Below are positions 2,770 to 49,190 of a stretch of 55,858 nt of DNA, in pieces. Source of the stretch: Candidatus Kaiserbacteria bacterium (GTDB lineage Bacteria; Patescibacteriota; Minisyncoccia; Phycocordibacterales; UBA2100); assembly GCA_023267655.1 (NCBI GenBank), contig JAHFMV010000007.1:1-55858 (forward strand), in the 5' to 3' direction. A program made the position numbers and the translations under genes. Each line of letters opens with the position of its first letter. Position 1 is the first letter of the stretch. The notes under the pieces were generated by a model. It did no database searches, was not told the origin of the DNA, and saw only the letters and a list, made by a program, of their open reading frames with translations.

Positions 2770-4299
2770 ATGAAAACTCCTTCCTCGCCAATCGCACGTC
2801 CGCCTATCGTTGCCGTACTTGGTCACGTTGACCATGGGAAATCGACGTTGCTTGATTACATTCGCAAAGCCAACACCGTCGCGAAAGAAGCGGGCGGGAT
2901 TACGCAGCATGTTGCGGCGTATGAAGTCGTGCACCCCATTAGAGAGGCTTCGCCCTCTAACGGGGCAGGTACGCGTGAAGGCAAAGAAAAGAAAATCACC
3001 TTCATCGACACTCCCGGCCACGCCGCATTTCAAGCGATTCGCGCGCGCGGCGCTAGGATTGCCGATATCGCTATTCTCGTCGTTGCAGCTGATGATGGCG
3101 TGAAGGCGCAAACACTCGAAGCGCTTGAGAGCATCAAAGCGAGCGGCACGTCGTTTGTCGTTGCCATCAATAAAATAGATAAGCCGAATGCGGATTTGAG
3201 TCGCACACAGGCATCCCTTCTTGAACATCATATTTATTTAGAAAAACTCGGCGGCGACATTCCGTGGACAGCCATTTCTGCAAAAACTGGCGAAGGCGTA
3301 GATACGCTCCTTGATCTCGTACTCCTTGTCGCCGAACTTGCCGATCTGAAAGCCAACACCGAAGCGCGCGCCGAAGGCTACGTCGTCGAAGCGCACCGCG
3401 ACGAAAAGCGCGGCATCGCGGCGACGCTCATCATAAAAAATGGCACACTAAAAAATGGCATGGCGATACTCGCGGGGCGCGCGATCGCGCCGGTACGCAT
3501 CATGGAGAGTCATCTGGGCAAAACGATTAAAGAGGCGACATTTTCAACACCAGTTACACTGTACGGCTTTGACGAATTACCGGAAGTCGGCGCAGAATTC
3601 GTTTCGTATAAAAACAAACACGACGCGGAACTCGACCGACCGGCACACGCGCGCAATCTCGTGAATTCAGTTGAAGAAGATATTTCCGGTAAATTCCACT
3701 TGCCCGTCATTGTCCGCGCCGATGTATCAGGATCGCTCGAAGGCATTTCACACGAGCTCGCGAAACTTGGCGATGCGTACATGGACGCACATATTGTGCT
3801 CTCGGGCATCGGTGCAATTTCTGAAAACGACGTGAAAGCGGCGGTTGCGTCGAAGACGCCCGCGGTCATCCTCGGCTTCGATGTCCCGGTTGATTCCCTT
3901 GCACGCGAATCCGCACGGCAACACGGCATCACGATTGAGACTTTCAATATTATTTACAAACTCGCCGAGCGCGTTGACGAGTTGATGCATGAAAAAGCGC
4001 CACGGCGGGTCGTGGAAGAAAAAATTGGTCGCGCAAAAATCCTCGCGCACTTCTCTTCGAAGCGCGAAGCGCATCTTGTCGGCGGCACTGTGCTTGAGGG
4101 TCGTATGGAAAAAGGCGCACAGGTGCGCATCATGCGCAAGCAGGAGCCACAGGGAGTGGGAAAGATTACCGGCTTGCAGACGAACAAACAAAACGTCGAT
4201 CGTGCCGACGAAGGCCGCGAATTCGGCGCGCAGATTACGAGCGAGGTTGCGGTTCTTCAAGGCGACGTATTAGAATGTTTCCGCACACAAACAATATGA
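2770..4299 (+). CDS. infB: Translation initiation factor IF-2 (short N-terminus)
   Basis: PIVAVLGHVDHGKSTLLDYIR, GGITQH, ITFIDTPGHAAFQAIRARGA, INKIDK; start placed at MKTPSSPIARPP within the longer ORF. Confidence 0.96.
   Translation: MKTPSSPIARPPIVAVLGHVDHGKSTLLDYIRKANTVAKEAGGITQHVAAYEVVHPIREASPSNGAGTREGKEKKITFIDTPGHAAFQAIRARGARIADIAILVVAADDGVKAQTLEALESIKASGTSFVVAINKIDKPNADLSRTQASLLEHHIYLEKLGGDIPWTAISAKTGEGVDTLLDLVLLVAELADLKANTEARAEGYVVEAHRDEKRGIAATLIIKNGTLKNGMAILAGRAIAPVRIMESHLGKTIKEATFSTPVTLYGFDELPEVGAEFVSYKNKHDAELDRPAHARNLVNSVEEDISGKFHLPVIVRADVSGSLEGISHELAKLGDAYMDAHIVLSGIGAISENDVKAAVASKTPAVILGFDVPVDSLARESARQHGITIETFNIIYKLAERVDELMHEKAPRRVVEEKIGRAKILAHFSSKREAHLVGGTVLEGRMEKGAQVRIMRKQEPQGVGKITGLQTNKQNVDRADEGREFGAQITSEVAVLQGDVLECFRTQTI
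2934..2969 (+). repeat. In-frame palindromic element in infB
   Basis: CCCCATTAGAGAGGCTTCGCCCTCTAACGGGGCAGG; 32/36 identical to 32288-32323. Confidence 0.8.
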
Positions 4300-5521: not shown

Positions 5522-6397
5522 ATGCAAAAGATAACTAAATGTGTAATACCGGTCGCGGGTATGGGAACTCGGTTCCTTCCGGCAACGAAAGCCATGCCGA
5601 AAGAGATGCTTCCGATCGTCGACAAGCCAATCATTCAATACATTGTCGAAGAAGCTGTCGCTTCCGGGATCAAGGACATTATTATGGTGACCGGTTGGCA
5701 CAAGCGTTCGATCGAAGATCACTTCGACTATCCCTATGAATTGGAAAAACGTCTTCTCGAAGCTGGTAAGGAAAAGCAAGCCGAAGAAGTGCGCAAAATT
5801 GCGAACCTCGCGAACTTCGTGTATATCCGTCAAAAAGGTCCGTACGGTAATGGAACGCCAGTTTTGAACGCGCGACATATCATCGGCGACGAGCCATTTG
5901 CAATAATGTGGGGCGATGAGTTTATTCATTCCGATCCTCCGCGATTGAAACAGATCATTGATGCGTATGAAAAATTCGGCAAACCGACTGTCTCGGCAGT
6001 TCGCATTCCGGAGAAAAATCTGGGGAAATACGGGATTGCTGATGTGACCGATATCGAACCAGGTATTTTCAAGATTAATAAAATCGTTGAGAAACCAAAG
6101 CCCGGGGAGGCGCCTTCAAAACTAGCGGCTCACGGTGCATGGGTGATGCCGCCCCGCTTGTTTGAGATACTCGCGCAAACACCGGTCGGCCAAGGCAACG
6201 AACTCTGGCTCCAAGATGCCATAACAACGCTCGCCAAAGAACAGGATATTTATGCTGTCGAGATTAAAGGCGGGAAATATTATGATACCGGCAACAAACT
6301 GGAATATCTAAAGACGGTCGTCGAATTCGCACTCAAACATCCGGAAGTAAATGGTGAGTTTAAGGAATATTTAAAGACTGTCGCGAAGAAACTCTAA
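5522..6397 (+). CDS. galU: UTP--glucose-1-phosphate uridylyltransferase
   Basis: CVIPVAGMGTRFLPATKAMPKEMLPIVDKPIIQYIVEEA. Confidence 0.95.
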   Translation: MQKITKCVIPVAGMGTRFLPATKAMPKEMLPIVDKPIIQYIVEEAVASGIKDIIMVTGWHKRSIEDHFDYPYELEKRLLEAGKEKQAEEVRKIANLANFVYIRQKGPYGNGTPVLNARHIIGDEPFAIMWGDEFIHSDPPRLKQIIDAYEKFGKPTVSAVRIPEKNLGKYGIADVTDIEPGIFKINKIVEKPKPGEAPSKLAAHGAWVMPPRLFEILAQTPVGQGNELWLQDAITTLAKEQDIYAVEIKGGKYYDTGNKLEYLKTVVEFALKHPEVNGEFKEYLKTVAKKL

Positions 6398-6419
6398 AGC
6401 GTGCTATAAATTCAGAGTC

Positions 6420-6502
6420 GCCGGGGTGGCGGAATGGTTTACGCGTTCGACTTAAGATCGAATGTCCGCAAGGACGTGAGAGTTCGAGTCTCTCTCCCGG
6501 CA
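6420..6502 (+). tRNA. tRNA-Leu (TAA)
   Basis: GCCGGGG acceptor, loop with TAA anticodon, long variable arm, T loop TTCGAGT. Confidence 0.93.
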
Positions 6503-6521
6503 ATAAATAATCTGTTTCGAT

Positions 6522-6594
6522 TCCGCCCACCAGGGATCGAACCTGGGACCTTATCCTTAAGAGGGATCTGCTCTACCAGCTGAGCTATAGGCGG
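6522..6594 (-). tRNA. tRNA-Lys (CTT)
   Basis: Reverse complement CCGCCTATAGCTCAGCTGGTAGAGC...CTCTTAA...TTCGATC...TGGGCGG. Confidence 0.92.
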
Positions 6595-6667
6595 TATTCG
6601 TTGCCGCACTGTTGCGGATTCGAAAAATATAGCATGAAATGCGCGATTGTCATGGTATATTCCCGTT

Positions 6668-11635: not shown

Positions 11636-11668
11636 TAAACGGCCCAATTACACCATATGGGCCGTTTA
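11636..11668. repeat. Palindromic repeat PR-1, copy 1
   Basis: TAAACGGCCCAATTACACCATATGGGCCGTTTA; near-identical inverted copy at 16394-16425. Confidence 0.8.
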
Positions 11669-16393: not shown

Positions 16394-16425
16394 TAACGGC
16401 CCATATGGTGTATTTGGGCCGTTTA
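16394..16425. repeat. Palindromic repeat PR-1, copy 2 (inverted relative to copy 1)
   Basis: TAACGGCCCATATGGTGTATTTGGGCCGTTTA. Confidence 0.8.
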
Positions 16426-16436
16426 GGCCTGACCTT

Positions 16437-16584
16437 TAGCGAGACGGTACCCGCGGGAGCAACTTCCAGAGAACATCGCGCAGCAAATACAAATACGTGA
16501 TGACATACAGTAGTAGATGTGACGTCATAAAATCCAGACAGGTTCGCGTTCGGGTGGAAGTTGCTCCCGCGGGTACCGCGAGCG
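16437..16584 (+). ncRNA. Candidate structured RNA element, copy A
   Basis: Perfect 22-bp terminal stem (16446-16467/16556-16577) enclosing an 88-nt core shared with 30488-30634. Confidence 0.6.
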
Positions 16585-16586
16585 CC

Positions 16587-19073
16587 CTATTCCTCCTTCC
16601 CTTCCAAAACAACGCACGCGGCGATTTTGTCGCCGGAACGGAGCGTCATGACGCGGACGCCTTGCGTTTGGCGGCCGCTGGAGCGGATTTCCTTGAGATC
16701 GGTGCGGATGACCTGGCTCTTTTGCGACATCGCGATGAGCTCGCCATGTTCGCCGACGATGAGTCCGGCAATCACCGGTCCCGTTTTTGCCGTCACAGCC
16801 GACGTCTTAATGCCCGAGCCGCCGCGTCCCTGCACTTTATATTCTTTAATCGGTGTCTTCTTGCCGTACCCGAGCTGCGAAAGCACCAAGAGCTCTTCCG
16901 CACCGCCCTTCGGCGCAACGCCAGCGCCCACGATAGCGTCCCCGCTTCCCAATTTAATTCCCCGCACGCCGCCGGCCTGCCGTCCCATCTCGCGCACTTC
17001 TTTCTCATCAAAACGAATTGATTGGCCTTTGGATGTCACCAAAAATACGGTGTCGCCTTTGCGTGCAAAGTTTGCAGAAATCAACGAGTCGCCTTTGTCG
17101 AGACCGATTGCGATCAAGCCCGAACGACGGACTTCCTTGAATGCCGCAGCAGCCGTCTTTTTCACCGTGCCGTTTTTCGTCGTCAGCACAAGCGAAAGTC
17201 CGTCAGCGGCTTTTGTCTCTTTTGGCATCGGCAAAATCGACGTGATCTGCTCGCCTGCTTCGAGCGAAATGAAATTCATGATCGATTTTCCTTTGGTGGC
17301 ACGCTTGCCTTCCGGTAGTTCGTACATCTTGATCTGATACGCCTTGCCGCGATCCGAGAAGAACAAAATGTCAGAATGTGCGCTGGTCGTAAGGAGATGC
17401 GTCACAAAATCTTCCTCTTTCGTATCCAAATCGACGACGCCCACGCCGCCGCGCCGCTGGCGACGATACTCTGCCGGGTTCGTACGTTTGATGTACCCGC
17501 CTTGGGTGAGGACGAGCGCGTAATCTTCGTCCGCGACCAAATCTTCCGCCGAAAGGATCGTCGCGCCGCGCTTTACGATTTTCGTGCGGCGGTCGTCGCC
17601 GTATTTCTCGCTTACTTCCTTCAATTCTTTCTTGATCAAATCATTCATCTTCTTCTGACTCTTGAGAAGTGCTTCCAATTCTTCGATAAGCGCCTGCACT
17701 GCCTTCAATTCGTCTTCGATTTTCTTGCGTTCGAGACCGGAGAGGCGCTGGAGGCGCATTTCAAGGATCGCGTTCGCTTGGATTTCAGAGAATTTGAATC
17801 GCGCGATCAATTTGGCACGCGCATCGTCGGTGTCTTTTGATTTCTTAATGAGCGCGATGATCTCATCGATATGATCGAGTGCTTTTGAGAGTCCGAGAAG
17901 GATGTGTTCACGTGCTTTTGCGACGCCAAGGTCGTATTTTGTGCGCCGCGTCACCACTTCTTTGCGATGTTTGATAAACGATTCGATAATCGCTTTCAGA
18001 GAAAGCGTCTGTGGGACGCCATCGACGAGCGCAACGACATTGTAGTGGAACGTCTCTTCGATCTGTGTGTGTTTATACAAATAGTTCAACACCGTCTGCG
18101 GATTCGCGTTGGATTTGAGGTCTATCACGATACGAATATCACGTGTCGATTCATCGCGAATGTCGCGAATGCCTTCGAGCTTCTTTTCGTGCACCAAATC
18201 GGCGATTTTTTGCAAAAGGTCAGATTTATTCACGCGAAACGGGATCGAGGTGACGATGATTTGGTAATCGCCTTTCTTGTTTTCAGTGATTTCCGCGTCG
18301 CCGCGCACGACGACGCCGCCGCGACCGGTTGAATACGCATGTTGGATGTCTTTGTGGTTGAACGCGATACATCCTGTCGGGAAATCGGGGCCCTGGACGA
18401 ATTGCAACAGATCGTCCGTCGTTGCGTCCTCGTTTTCTATCAAATGGATCGTCGCGTCGACGACTTCTCGCAGGTTGTGCGGTGGAATATTCGTCGCCAT
18501 ACCGACGGCGATGCCGAGTGTGCCGTTTAAAAGGAGATTCGGGACGGCAGCCGGCAAGACGACAGGCTCTGTTTTTGTGCTATCGTAGTTCGCGACGTAG
18601 TTCACCGTCTCTTTTTCAATATCGCGGAGCATTTCTCCGGCAAGTCGCGACATTTTTGCTTCGGTATAACGATAGGCGGCCGCGCCGTCACCATCGATCG
18701 ATCCAAAATTTCCTTGACCGATGATAAGTGGATAGCGCATCGTGAAATCCTGCGCCATTTTTACCATCGCGTCGTAGACCGATACATCGCCGTGCGGATG
18801 ATATTTACCCAAGACATCGCCAACGACGGTGGCTGATTTACGCGTCTTTGCATTCGCAGTGAGCCCTGCTTCATGCATGGCATACAAAATGCGGCGGTGT
18901 ACGGGCTTCAAGCCATCGCGCACATCAGGAAGTGCGCGCGAGGTAATAACTGACATCGCGTAGTCGAGATACGACTCGCGCATTTCAGTCGAAATTGATC
19001 GCGGGACGATACGCTGCGGCGACGGAATGCCTGCCGCTGGTGCATCAGATTTACCCTTTTCGCCACGCGCCAT
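16587..19073 (-). CDS. gyrA: DNA gyrase subunit A
   Basis: [54 protein letters not shown]. Confidence 0.97.
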
Positions 19074-28105: not shown

Positions 28106-28153
28106 TTGTGCAGGCCAGGCTTGCACAAGCTTGTGCAAGCCTGGCCTGCACAA
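28106..28153. repeat. Perfect 48-bp palindrome (24-bp arms, no spacer)
   Basis: TTGTGCAGGCCAGGCTTGCACAAG|CTTGTGCAAGCCTGGCCTGCACAA. Confidence 0.95.
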
Positions 28154-30487: not shown

Positions 30488-30634
30488 TAGCGAGACGGCG
30501 ATAGGTGGTGTTCCTCCCAGAGAACATCGCGCAGCAAATAGCAACGCGTGGAGACATACAGAAGTAGATGTGACGTCAAAGCTTCCGCTCAGTTCGTGTT
30601 CGGGTGGGAGGAATACCGCCTAGCGCCGCGAGCG
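30488..30634 (+). ncRNA. Candidate structured RNA element, copy B (upstream of ftsZ)
   Basis: 22-nt arms 30497-30518/30606-30627 pair (19 WC, 2 G-U, 1 mismatch) around an 87-nt core nearly identical to copy A. Confidence 0.6.
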
Positions 30635-32015: not shown

Positions 32016-32972
32016 ATGCATGACGTATTGATCGTTGGTGGTGGCCCTGCCGGTGTCGCAGCAGCCGTGTACGCAGCACGCAAACGGCTTAAAACGGTCC
32101 TCGTAACGGATGATTGGGGCGGACAAAGCACGGTGTCGCCTGAAATCCAAAATTGGATCGGCGACCCAAGCATCAGCGGCGCTGATTTGGCAAAGAAATT
32201 GAAAACCCACGTCGAAGAATACAAAGGCGAGTGGCTCGAGATCATGGCACCGCACCGCGCAAAATCCATCAAAGACATCAAAGATGGCCCCATTAGAGAG
32301 CCTGCGGCCTCAAACGGGGCAGGCCTCGAGGTGACCTGCAGCGACGGTTCGACACATCAGGCGCGCACGCTGCTCATCGCGACCGGCTCCAACCGCCGCA
32401 AACTTGAAGTCCCCGGCGCCGCAGAATTTGACCAGAAAGGCCTCACCTATTGCGCCTCGTGCGACGGCCCTCTCTTTGCGGATATGGATGTTGCCGTGAT
32501 CGGCGGCGGCAACGCCGCATTTGAAACCGCGATGCAGCTCCTCGCGTACTGCAAGACAGTGACGATGATCATCCGCGGCGACTCATTTCGCGCAGACGAG
32601 CTCACGGTAGAAAAAGTTCTCAAGAATCCGAAAATGAAAGTTATAAAGAATGCGGAGCTCCTCGAAATAAAAGGTGAGAAATTTGTGAATGGCATTCGCT
32701 ACAAAGTCGCCGAGGCCGAATCCACGCTTCCGGTTTCCGGCATCTTCGTCGAGATCGGCCTCGTCCCGAATACCGAATGGCTCGGCACGAGCGTTAAGAA
32801 AACCAAATTCAACCAAATCGTCGTTGATCCGCTCACACAAAAGACCTCCCATCCGCGCATCTGGGCTGCCGGCGACTGCACCGATGGCAAATACCACCAA
32901 AACAACATCGCCGCGGGTGATGCCGTCAAGGCACTCGAGGATTTGTATCTGTTTGTCCATCACGAAAAATAG
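32016..32972 (+). CDS. trxB: Thioredoxin reductase (FAD/NAD(P)-binding)
   Basis: HDVLIVGGGPAGVAAAVYAARK, YCASCDGPLFADMDVAVIGGGNAAFE, IWAAGDCTDGKYHQNNIAAGDAVKA. Confidence 0.9.
   Translation: MHDVLIVGGGPAGVAAAVYAARKRLKTVLVTDDWGGQSTVSPEIQNWIGDPSISGADLAKKLKTHVEEYKGEWLEIMAPHRAKSIKDIKDGPIREPAASNGAGLEVTCSDGSTHQARTLLIATGSNRRKLEVPGAAEFDQKGLTYCASCDGPLFADMDVAVIGGGNAAFETAMQLLAYCKTVTMIIRGDSFRADELTVEKVLKNPKMKVIKNAELLEIKGEKFVNGIRYKVAEAESTLPVSGIFVEIGLVPNTEWLGTSVKKTKFNQIVVDPLTQKTSHPRIWAAGDCTDGKYHQNNIAAGDAVKALEDLYLFVHHEK
32288..32323 (+). repeat. In-frame palindromic element in trxB
   Basis: CCCCATTAGAGAGCCTGCGGCCTCAAACGGGGCAGG. Confidence 0.8.
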
Positions 32973-43677: not shown

Positions 43678-44894
43678 TGCGAATACTGGGAATAGAGACG
43701 AGCTGCGATGAGACCGCTGTTTGCGTAATTGAGGCAGAGGGTGAGCTCGGCGATTTTCAATATAAAGTGCTCGGCAATGCCCTTATTTCACAGGCAAAAT
43801 TGCACGAGCAGTACGGCGGCGTGTTTCCCAATCTTGCGAAGCGTGAGCACGAAAAAAACCTCGTGCCACTGTTAACAAAAGCGCTCATGGACTCGGGACT
43901 CGCAAAGGATGGCAATTCACTCGCCGACATAACGCATATTTTGGAGCGCGAAAAAGAATTACAAGTCCTGCTCTCCGAATTTTTGAAAACGCACGGTAAG
44001 CCCGAGGTCGACGCGATCGCAGTCACACACGGGCCGGGGCTTGAACCAGCGCTCTGGGTCGGGATTAATTTCGCCAAAGCGCTCGCGCATGCGTGGCAAG
44101 TGCCGATCGTTCCAGTAAATCACATGGAAGGACACGTCATCCTCTCCGCACTGACAGGCGGAAAGGATGAAATTTTCAATTCGCAATTTGCAATTTGCAA
44201 TAAACCCAAATTCCCGATGCTGTCGCTACTAATTTCAGGTGGTCATACGGAATTGGTACTTTCAAAAGAGTTTATGCGGTACGAACTCATCGGACAGACG
44301 CGCGATGACGCCGTTGGTGAGGCGTTTGATAAAGTCGCTCGCCTTATGGGCTTACCGTACCCCGGCGGGCCGGAGATCGATAGATTAGCAACGGAAGCGC
44401 GCGGGGAAAGGTTTAACCTTTCTCATGGCTTAACCACGGCCCAGGAAAGGTTAAACCTTTTCCACGTTGTTTTGCCGCGGCCGATGATTGATTCGGATAA
44501 TTACGATTTCTCGTTTGCCGGGTTGAAGACGGCGGTGAGGAAAGTGGTGGAAGCGAATCAACCGCTAACGGACGAGAAAAAAATGGAAATCGCGCTTGAA
44601 TTTGAGAATGCTTGTGCGGAAGTGCTTGTTGCAAAGACAATGCGCGCGATCGAGGAATTCGGCGTCGAGACGCTGGTTGTCGGCGGCGGCGTTTCGGCCA
44701 ATATGTTTATCCGCGAATCACTGGTACAAGCGATCAAAGACTACGGCTACTCGACGAAACTCTTCATCCCACCGCGCGAACTCGCAACCGACAACGCGCT
44801 AATGATCGCGCTTGCTGGTTATTTTCGCGCTTGTAAAAAAGAATTCGCCGAACCTGATTCTATTCGTGCAAATGGAAATCTAAAATTGGCATAA
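43677..44894 (+). CDS. tsaD: tRNA N6-adenosine threonylcarbamoyltransferase
   Basis: ILGIETSCDETAVCVIE, LISGGHTELVL, DNALMIALAGY. Confidence 0.95.
   Translation: MRILGIETSCDETAVCVIEAEGELGDFQYKVLGNALISQAKLHEQYGGVFPNLAKREHEKNLVPLLTKALMDSGLAKDGNSLADITHILEREKELQVLLSEFLKTHGKPEVDAIAVTHGPGLEPALWVGINFAKALAHAWQVPIVPVNHMEGHVILSALTGGKDEIFNSQFAICNKPKFPMLSLLISGGHTELVLSKEFMRYELIGQTRDDAVGEAFDKVARLMGLPYPGGPEIDRLATEARGERFNLSHGLTTAQERLNLFHVVLPRPMIDSDNYDFSFAGLKTAVRKVVEANQPLTDEKKMEIALEFENACAEVLVAKTMRAIEEFGVETLVVGGGVSANMFIRESLVQAIKDYGYSTKLFIPPRELATDNALMIALAGYFRACKKEFAEPDSIRANGNLKLA
44406..44461. repeat. Inverted repeat within tsaD coding sequence
   Basis: GAAAGGTTTAACCTTTC (44406-44422) and GAAAGGTTAAACCTTTT (44445-44461), 16/17 complementary. 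Confidence 0.85.
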
Positions 44895-48547: not shown

Positions 48548-49057
48548 ATGGCGAAACCATCATTCTTCCAGAGGCTGACCGGCGCGGCAGATACGCGCGA
48601 TTATGAGGACTTTCTTGACGACCCACAGGCACAGCACGTGTCGTTTTCGTCATCGGGCGGCAGAGAACGTCATGCGATTATAAAGACGAAAGAGCCTGCA
48701 GCAGGGTGGCAAGAGGACACCGAAGGCTCGGGAGAGCTTGCCGTCGATGTATATCAGACACCTGATTCGATCGTCGTAAAGGCGCTTGTCGCCGGCGTGC
48801 AGCCACAGACCATTGATATTTCACTCACCCGCGAGATGTTGACCGTGAGTGGCATCCGAGCGGATGAAAAAGAGGTAGAGGAAGATCACTACTACCAGCG
48901 CGAGCTCTATTGGGGTTCGTTTTCGCGCACTATTTTGCTTCCCGAAGAGGTGGATGTGGATCGTGCCGAAGCGTCCGAAAAACACGGCATTTTGATGATC
49001 CGTTTGCCGAAGATTAATAAGAAGCGGGAGACGAAACTAAAAGTGCGAGCGAGGTAA
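48548..49057 (+). CDS. Hsp20/alpha-crystallin family small heat shock protein
   Basis: ELAVDVYQTPDSIVVKALVAGVQPQTIDISLTREMLTVSG...KHGILMIRLPK. Confidence 0.92.
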   Translation: MAKPSFFQRLTGAADTRDYEDFLDDPQAQHVSFSSSGGRERHAIIKTKEPAAGWQEDTEGSGELAVDVYQTPDSIVVKALVAGVQPQTIDISLTREMLTVSGIRADEKEVEEDHYYQRELYWGSFSRTILLPEEVDVDRAEASEKHGILMIRLPKINKKRETKLKVRAR

Positions 49058-49190
49058 ATCCGCAAAAATCGCGAGCTGCGTTGTTGCGGGTCCCGTGCGT
49101 GTTTGTCACTGTACAGTTGTACCGCTCCAAACCCGCCCATCCCGCGCCTAGCATCTCATCGATTTTTGCGGATTTACTCCAGATACCTTG

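Follow-up and report, generated by a model that had tools for sequence, protein, structure and literature searches.

Behind the gyrA gene of a Candidatus Kaiserbacteria bacterium lies a long inverted repeat enclosing a stretch that recurs elsewhere in the same DNA, which raises the question of whether it is a single structured RNA, a functional site of its host, or one copy of a dispersed element. The window analysed here is the whole stretch of 55,858 nucleotides. The earlier note on this DNA had described a perfect stem of 22 bp around an 88-nt core; the stem is indeed perfect, while both sizes were slightly off, as the arms measure 24 nt (100% complementary) with 86 nt between them. By our own arithmetic, a perfect 22-bp inverted repeat with a loop of <=200 nt is expected by chance ~6e-7 times per 56 kb. 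The element had also been placed 2 nt from the gyrA stop codon on the opposite strand, and a second copy with nearly the same core, the same outer flanks and a different stem had been reported. Both statements hold: the flank of the first element (copy A) ends at 16584, 2 nt before the stop codon at 16587-16589 of a gene assigned to gyrA (TIGR01063), and alignment confirms a copy B (30488-30634), located between ftsA and ftsZ, with a closely similar core and the flanks TAGCGAGACGG.../...CCGCGAGCG of copy A. The two copies share 88% identity over 65 nt spanning the arm end and the core, and the 24-bp stem of copy B, with a few wobble pairs, differs from that of copy A (Table 1). Relative to dinucleotide shuffles, the fold energies correspond to z = -9.0 (copy A) and -6.3 (copy B). 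Just upstream of copy A sits one of two 31-nt inverted copies of the hairpin-forming sequence AACGGCCCATATGGTGTATTTGGGCCGTTTA (16395-16425 and 11636-11666; 97% complementary).

Table 1. Positions in the window of the two H1 copies, the adjoining gyrA gene and an H2 member.
Feature	Position	Strand	Remarks
Left flank ('foot') TAGCGAGA, copy A	16437..16444	+	Common to copy B, most other H1 copies of the genome and hairpins with another core
5' arm of variable stem P1, copy A	16445..16468	+	Perfect 24-nt inverted repeat
Conserved core H1, copy A: GAGAACATCGCGCAGCAAA ... ACATACAGTAGTAGATGTGA ... GTTCGGG	16469..16554	+	17 genome copies; 85 genus matches (22/52 genomes)
3' arm of variable stem P1, copy A	16555..16578	+	Perfect 24-nt inverted repeat
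Right flank GAGCG, copy A	16579..16584	+	Common to copy B and other copies
gyrA	16587..19073	-	NCBIfam TIGR01063; stop codon 2 nt from copy A, which is antisense
Left flank, copy B	30488..30495	+	As in copy A
5' arm of stem, copy B	30496..30519	+	Stem type of about half of the genome's copies
Conserved core H1, copy B	30520..30604	+	Core alignment with genome copies
3' arm of stem, copy B	30605..30628	+	Pairs with 30496..30519
Right flank, copy B	30629..30634	+	As in copy A
H2 member: perfect 18-bp stem, unrelated conserved core	49054..49177	-	Stop codon of the neighbouring Hsp20-type gene inside the stem base

Copies A and B belong to a family, here termed H1, of which the host genome (1.09 Mb, 27 contigs) contains 17 full copies, all 17 with a distance of 72 or 73 nt from GAGAAC to GTTCG. 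A covariance model built from these host-genome copies retrieved further ones in 16 other genomes of the genus, and a second model, built from 53 copies, gave 85 matches in 22 of 52 genus genomes, with copy numbers from 0 to 17 per genome; a shorter covariance model, R2, was used for H1 searching. The named records among the matches are metagenome assemblies of Candidatus Kaiserbacteria and Nomurabacteria, and an assembly artefact is unlikely because the copies are present in many independent metagenome assemblies. Outside the genus, the second model found no H1 in 197 genomes sampled across the order, and none was found in phage records and viral contigs. Pattern matches in Burkholderiales (GAACMTCGCGCARCRNA..GYAGTRG at fixed 54- or 63-nt spacing; L204-L276) were set aside, as they probably represent a conserved coding region. 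H1 is a dispersed multi-copy element rather than a single non-coding RNA gene, which goes beyond the first reading of the locus.

That reading had taken the conserved core within a non-conserved but paired stem as the mark of a selected RNA or single-stranded DNA fold, belonging to no recognised family, and had proposed a covariance-model search as a check; the many homologues recovered from the genus, with their strongly covarying stems, support it. In a structural alignment of 61 H1 copies, 94-95.2% of the cells of stem P1 hold standard pairs, and 22 of the 23 pairs (P1 and a short inner helix, GAAC/GTTC) have changed on both sides. The covariation score amounts to 0.888, as against a mean of 0.177 for shuffled and at most 0.148 for slid controls (a ~5-fold and a ~6-fold difference, respectively), so that base-pair covariation exceeds the controls, as is required of a structured RNA. 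The inner helix, P2, also occurs in the rare compensatory forms GTAC/GTAC and GAGC/GCTC. Other helices inside the H1 core were predicted by RNAalifold and were not retained, having no covariation support beyond P1 and the short P2. The conserved parts of the core are, in order, [GA]GAAC[AC]TCGCGCAGCAAA, about 20 variable nucleotides, (ACATAC)NGCAGTRGTGAT or the GTAGATGTGA form, a variable stretch, and GTTCG. A search of the window against Rfam at gathering thresholds (4227 families, release 15) returned only tRNAs, and a permissive search with copies of H1 and of the two families introduced below (H2, H5) gave sub-threshold matches or none. Likewise, no description of such elements was found in the open-access literature, although one may have been published.

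Stem and core behave as separate modules. For example, one pair of copies in the host genome has cores that are 96% identical and stems that are 25% identical, i.e. no better than chance, and, conversely, near-identical stems occur there with cores that are only 70-80% identical. Near-identical copies with shared flanks also exist, and some copies are enclosed by longer inverted repeats. Whether stems change by block swap or by very fast rewriting cannot be told from the present data. The stem as a guide to some other genomic site was considered and rejected: apart from the common stem type and partial derivatives of it, no stem has another full-length match in 847 kb of the genome.

Another hairpin of this design, with an unrelated core, is present in the window (49054-49177); its family, H2, has copies across the host genome and is present in 24 of 52 genus genomes. 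A survey of these 847 kb (~78% of the host genome) yielded 58 long-loop hairpins, including some with a third core, H5, whose flanks GAGCGAGACGG...CCGCGAGCG are in common with H1; it occurs in 23 of 52 genus genomes and reaches 17 copies in one of them. The stems of both are as variable as those of H1, and hairpins are found nested in each other's loops. H1 is one of at least three families of the same architecture, again more than the first reading had seen, and their common design is a core of ~55-90 nt closed by a stem of 18-37 bp in which only the pairing is kept.

Several other repeats were noted in passing. Two near-identical H1 copies of one genome (L074 and L092 in G017) carry a 31-nt hairpin insertion in the core; other copies of the same genome are framed by an outer inverted repeat, AGTATGTTTGAAA...TTTCAAACATACT, which in G064 (L345) encloses an H5 element. 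Downstream of gyrA in G032 (L163), as for copy A, a perfect 26-bp hairpin encloses a core of 63 nt (on the other strand, TGACCTCGGAGCGGG...) and may represent a further family. Palindromes with a conserved stem, CCCCGTTAGAG, and a variable loop, the reverse of H1, occur in the window (2934-2969, 32288-32323) and elsewhere in G000 (C13:13920, C14:34047, C3:148185, C6:12733). Finally, another variable-arm family consists of repeats 120-125 bp long whose ends (TAGKACAATT) are conserved and whose inner arms vary (G000 C14:1558, C24:2220, C3:19313, C3:60057).

Mispairs within the stems bear on the question of which strand folds. Read on the core strand, G.T mispairs outnumber A.C mispairs by 56 to 20 over the three families (p = 4e-5), each family showing the same direction, although the copies are not independent; the scoring treats all mispairs alike. 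A fold tolerates G.T but not A.C, which is what G.T becomes on the complementary strand, so it is the core strand that matters. This bias does not separate RNA from single-stranded DNA, and the best reading is that the fold acts on the core strand in one form or the other; transcription is unshown, as there are no transcript data.

The placement of the elements is likewise oriented. Stop codons within 25 nt lie on the 3' side of the element in 37 cases and on the 5' side in 9 (p = 4e-5), with the same direction in the three families. These counts, and the genes near related copies, rest on simple mechanical ORF calls, and since the H1, H2 and H5 copies are related and not phylogenetically independent, the p-values are indicative only. 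The neighbouring genes have no common function; core genes among them include gyrA, ftsZ, secA and rpoD. Copies are found at orthologous sites (secA-gatB, rpmH-dnaA and others), and their stems are unlike there (at secA-gatB in three species, at rpmH-dnaA in several, and at others). Copy A is absent from the gyrA loci of the nearest relatives, and presence is polymorphic at orthologous sites (gyrA; rpmH-dnaA), as expected of a mobile element. Among closely identical sequences, no clean empty site was recovered, and there is no excess of direct repeats >=9 nt that would indicate target-site duplication, shorter repeats not being excluded. Similarly, neither a transposase nor an excised form was found. 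A general association with DnaA boxes was rejected, as only 11 of 61 copies lie within 150 nt of one, partly driven by the rpmH-dnaA site. Two neighbourhoods may be mentioned here: the start of an IS1595-type transposase gene lies 120 nt from one H1 copy (L113, G000:C14), and in L069 (G022:C32, ~6377-6630) the last rpoD codons (HDRAKQLRSY-stop) occur again beyond the end of rpoD, immediately ahead of an H1 element.

Of 30 inspected species, 15 have an unambiguous long-stem hairpin in the interval from the rpmH promoter to the TATCCACA boxes; other species have none. The cores are of H1 or H5 type, apart from those of G035 and G063, which are unassigned; in G015 a pair of inverted H1 copies takes the place of such a hairpin, and the divergent H1 of G070 was found by the second covariance model. 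In G003 (H5) and G018 (H1), nearly the same flanks surround hairpins with different cores. With the exception of the G015 double copy, all inspected H1 and H5 cores stand in the dnaA sense and adjoin the boxes. Two readings of the site are possible: a hot spot, or a function in the origin for which either core will do.

We give an even chance to the explanation that H1, H2 and H5 are dispersed non-autonomous elements recognised via their single-strand fold, with stems selected for pairing only, and the best reading is that they are mobile, at least in the past. The core strand would fold as RNA or single-stranded DNA; copies would spread within genomes and then be inherited at their sites, most of them settling between genes, where the 3' side would typically abut the stop codon of an opposite-strand gene, and the space between rpmH and dnaA would be one recurrent settling site. 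Mobilisation in trans by a structure-recognising enzyme, which is unidentified, and rapid rewriting or exchange of stems are inferred. The structure, its covariation, the multi-copy dispersal, the orthologous sites, the orientation and the folding-strand bias are observed; mobility, the enzyme, the choice between RNA and single-stranded DNA and the way in which stems change are not shown by the present evidence. More speculatively, and on balance doubtfully, the elements could constitute a new class, recognised by structure, in which folded heads with at least three unrelated cores can be exchanged on a common design, the long stem is rewritten as a unit (both arms together), and the orientation is fixed, both behind stop codons and at the chromosomal origin. 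This would imply that some enzyme or replication step, as yet unknown, reads the structure of the single strand and copies one arm anew from the other. In either case, pairing is almost fully separated from sequence, as the same core, and even the same locus, occurs with unrelated paired stems, and the elements offer a natural test of palindrome-arm co-evolution by fold selection, hairpin-templated repair or module exchange. The genus in which they abound consists of ultra-small and mostly uncultured bacteria whose genomes are compact; the elements adjoin core genes and DnaA boxes there, and apparently remain unannotated by existing RNA-family libraries.

The recurrent occupation of rpmH-dnaA could reflect host function rather than insertion, which counts against dispersal as non-autonomous elements. 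Indeed, the oriented abutment on stop codons, the presence kept at secA-gatB and rpmH-dnaA in several species, and the common sense of the H1 and H5 cores beside the TATCCACA boxes (G015 excepted) would suit host cis elements, i.e. structured RNA or DNA located at the origin and at the 3' ends of genes (transcription insulators, mRNA-end stabilisers, origin structures) whose copies were recruited at many loci. We regard this as unlikely, though not to be set aside, as the neighbours lack a common function, many species are without an element at the same loci, and the wrong strand carries the G.T signature if the element is part of the abutting gene's mRNA; moreover, no T-tract follows the stems and no promoter-like site was found at copy A.

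Stem turnover can be followed most closely at rpmH-dnaA in G003 and G061, where the H5 cores are identical at 55 of 55 positions and the right flanks at 86%, while 14 of 28 stem pairs have changed on both sides with pairing kept at 27/28 and 26/28. Quasipalindrome correction is an established process for bacterial inverted repeats, and stems that outpace core and flanks yet stay paired could arise by mutation alone, intramolecular template switching keeping the arms complementary and raising the rate without any selection for pairing. The excess of G.T over A.C mispairs on one strand, seen in each of the three families, however, suggests selection on that strand, and neither dispersal nor core is explained, so that this alternative seems to us improbable. 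We hold still less with independent small RNA genes (a trans-acting sRNA or a ribozyme) closed by a variable stem: covarying structure, the core-strand G.T bias and a conserved, mostly unpaired core are what such genes would show, but the promoter-like site at copy A and the Rfam match are wanting, copy number varies as described above, and the H1 core has no further covarying helix.

Dispersed elements with a selected fold may be compared with several known systems. H1 elements resemble MITEs in being short dispersed repeats that are non-autonomous and have inverted arms, and some of their copies lie in longer inverted repeats; in contrast to MITEs, their arms vary completely between copies yet remain complementary, and different cores have the same flanks. 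The conserved terminal inverted repeats of (DDE-type) MITEs are not met with, as H1 arms are unrelated between copies. NEMIS/Correia, ERIC, BOX and RUP are further bacterial small mobile sequences. Bacterial MITEs and small mobile sequences have been reviewed (PMC2229807). Riboswitches and self-cleaving ribozymes with a variable P1 similarly combine a conserved core with a covarying closing stem, whereas H1 has no Rfam match, a much longer and nearly perfect stem, a dispersed, mobile-like occurrence and no shared regulon. Integron attC sites and IS200-IS605 ends are recognised by fold on a single DNA strand, a proposed likeness to H1; however, the conserved part of H1 is the interior and not stem boxes, and the IS200-type genes of the host genome are located away from H1 elements.

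REP/REPIN sequences with their RAYT (TnpA-REP) partners are also intergenic, multi-copy, palindromic and probably mobilised in trans (PMC2817692, PMC3116915, PMC8266576). REPs, however, are 20-40 bp long (PMC3733652) and consist of a short conserved palindrome with a conserved tetranucleotide tag, a criterion that H1, with ~150 nt, a conserved core and a variable stem, does not meet. RAYT-like genes are present in the host genome; no RAYT gene flanked by H1 palindromes was found, the hairpins at the examined host genes being unrelated. That H1 elements are ordinary REP/REPIN palindromes moved by RAYT (Y1) transposases is barely tenable: HUH (Y1) transposases are common (45 of 52 genus genomes, six in the host genome), but no link between them and H1 was found, the hairpins beside the examined RAYT-like genes of the host belong to other palindromes, which have short loops and conserved stems, and H1 is much longer with a stem that is not conserved. 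Short-loop palindromes in the window (28106-28153 and 44404-44463) share their families with palindromes that flank RAYT-like (Y1_Tnp) genes elsewhere in the host genome (G000:C5:10865, C7:23850).
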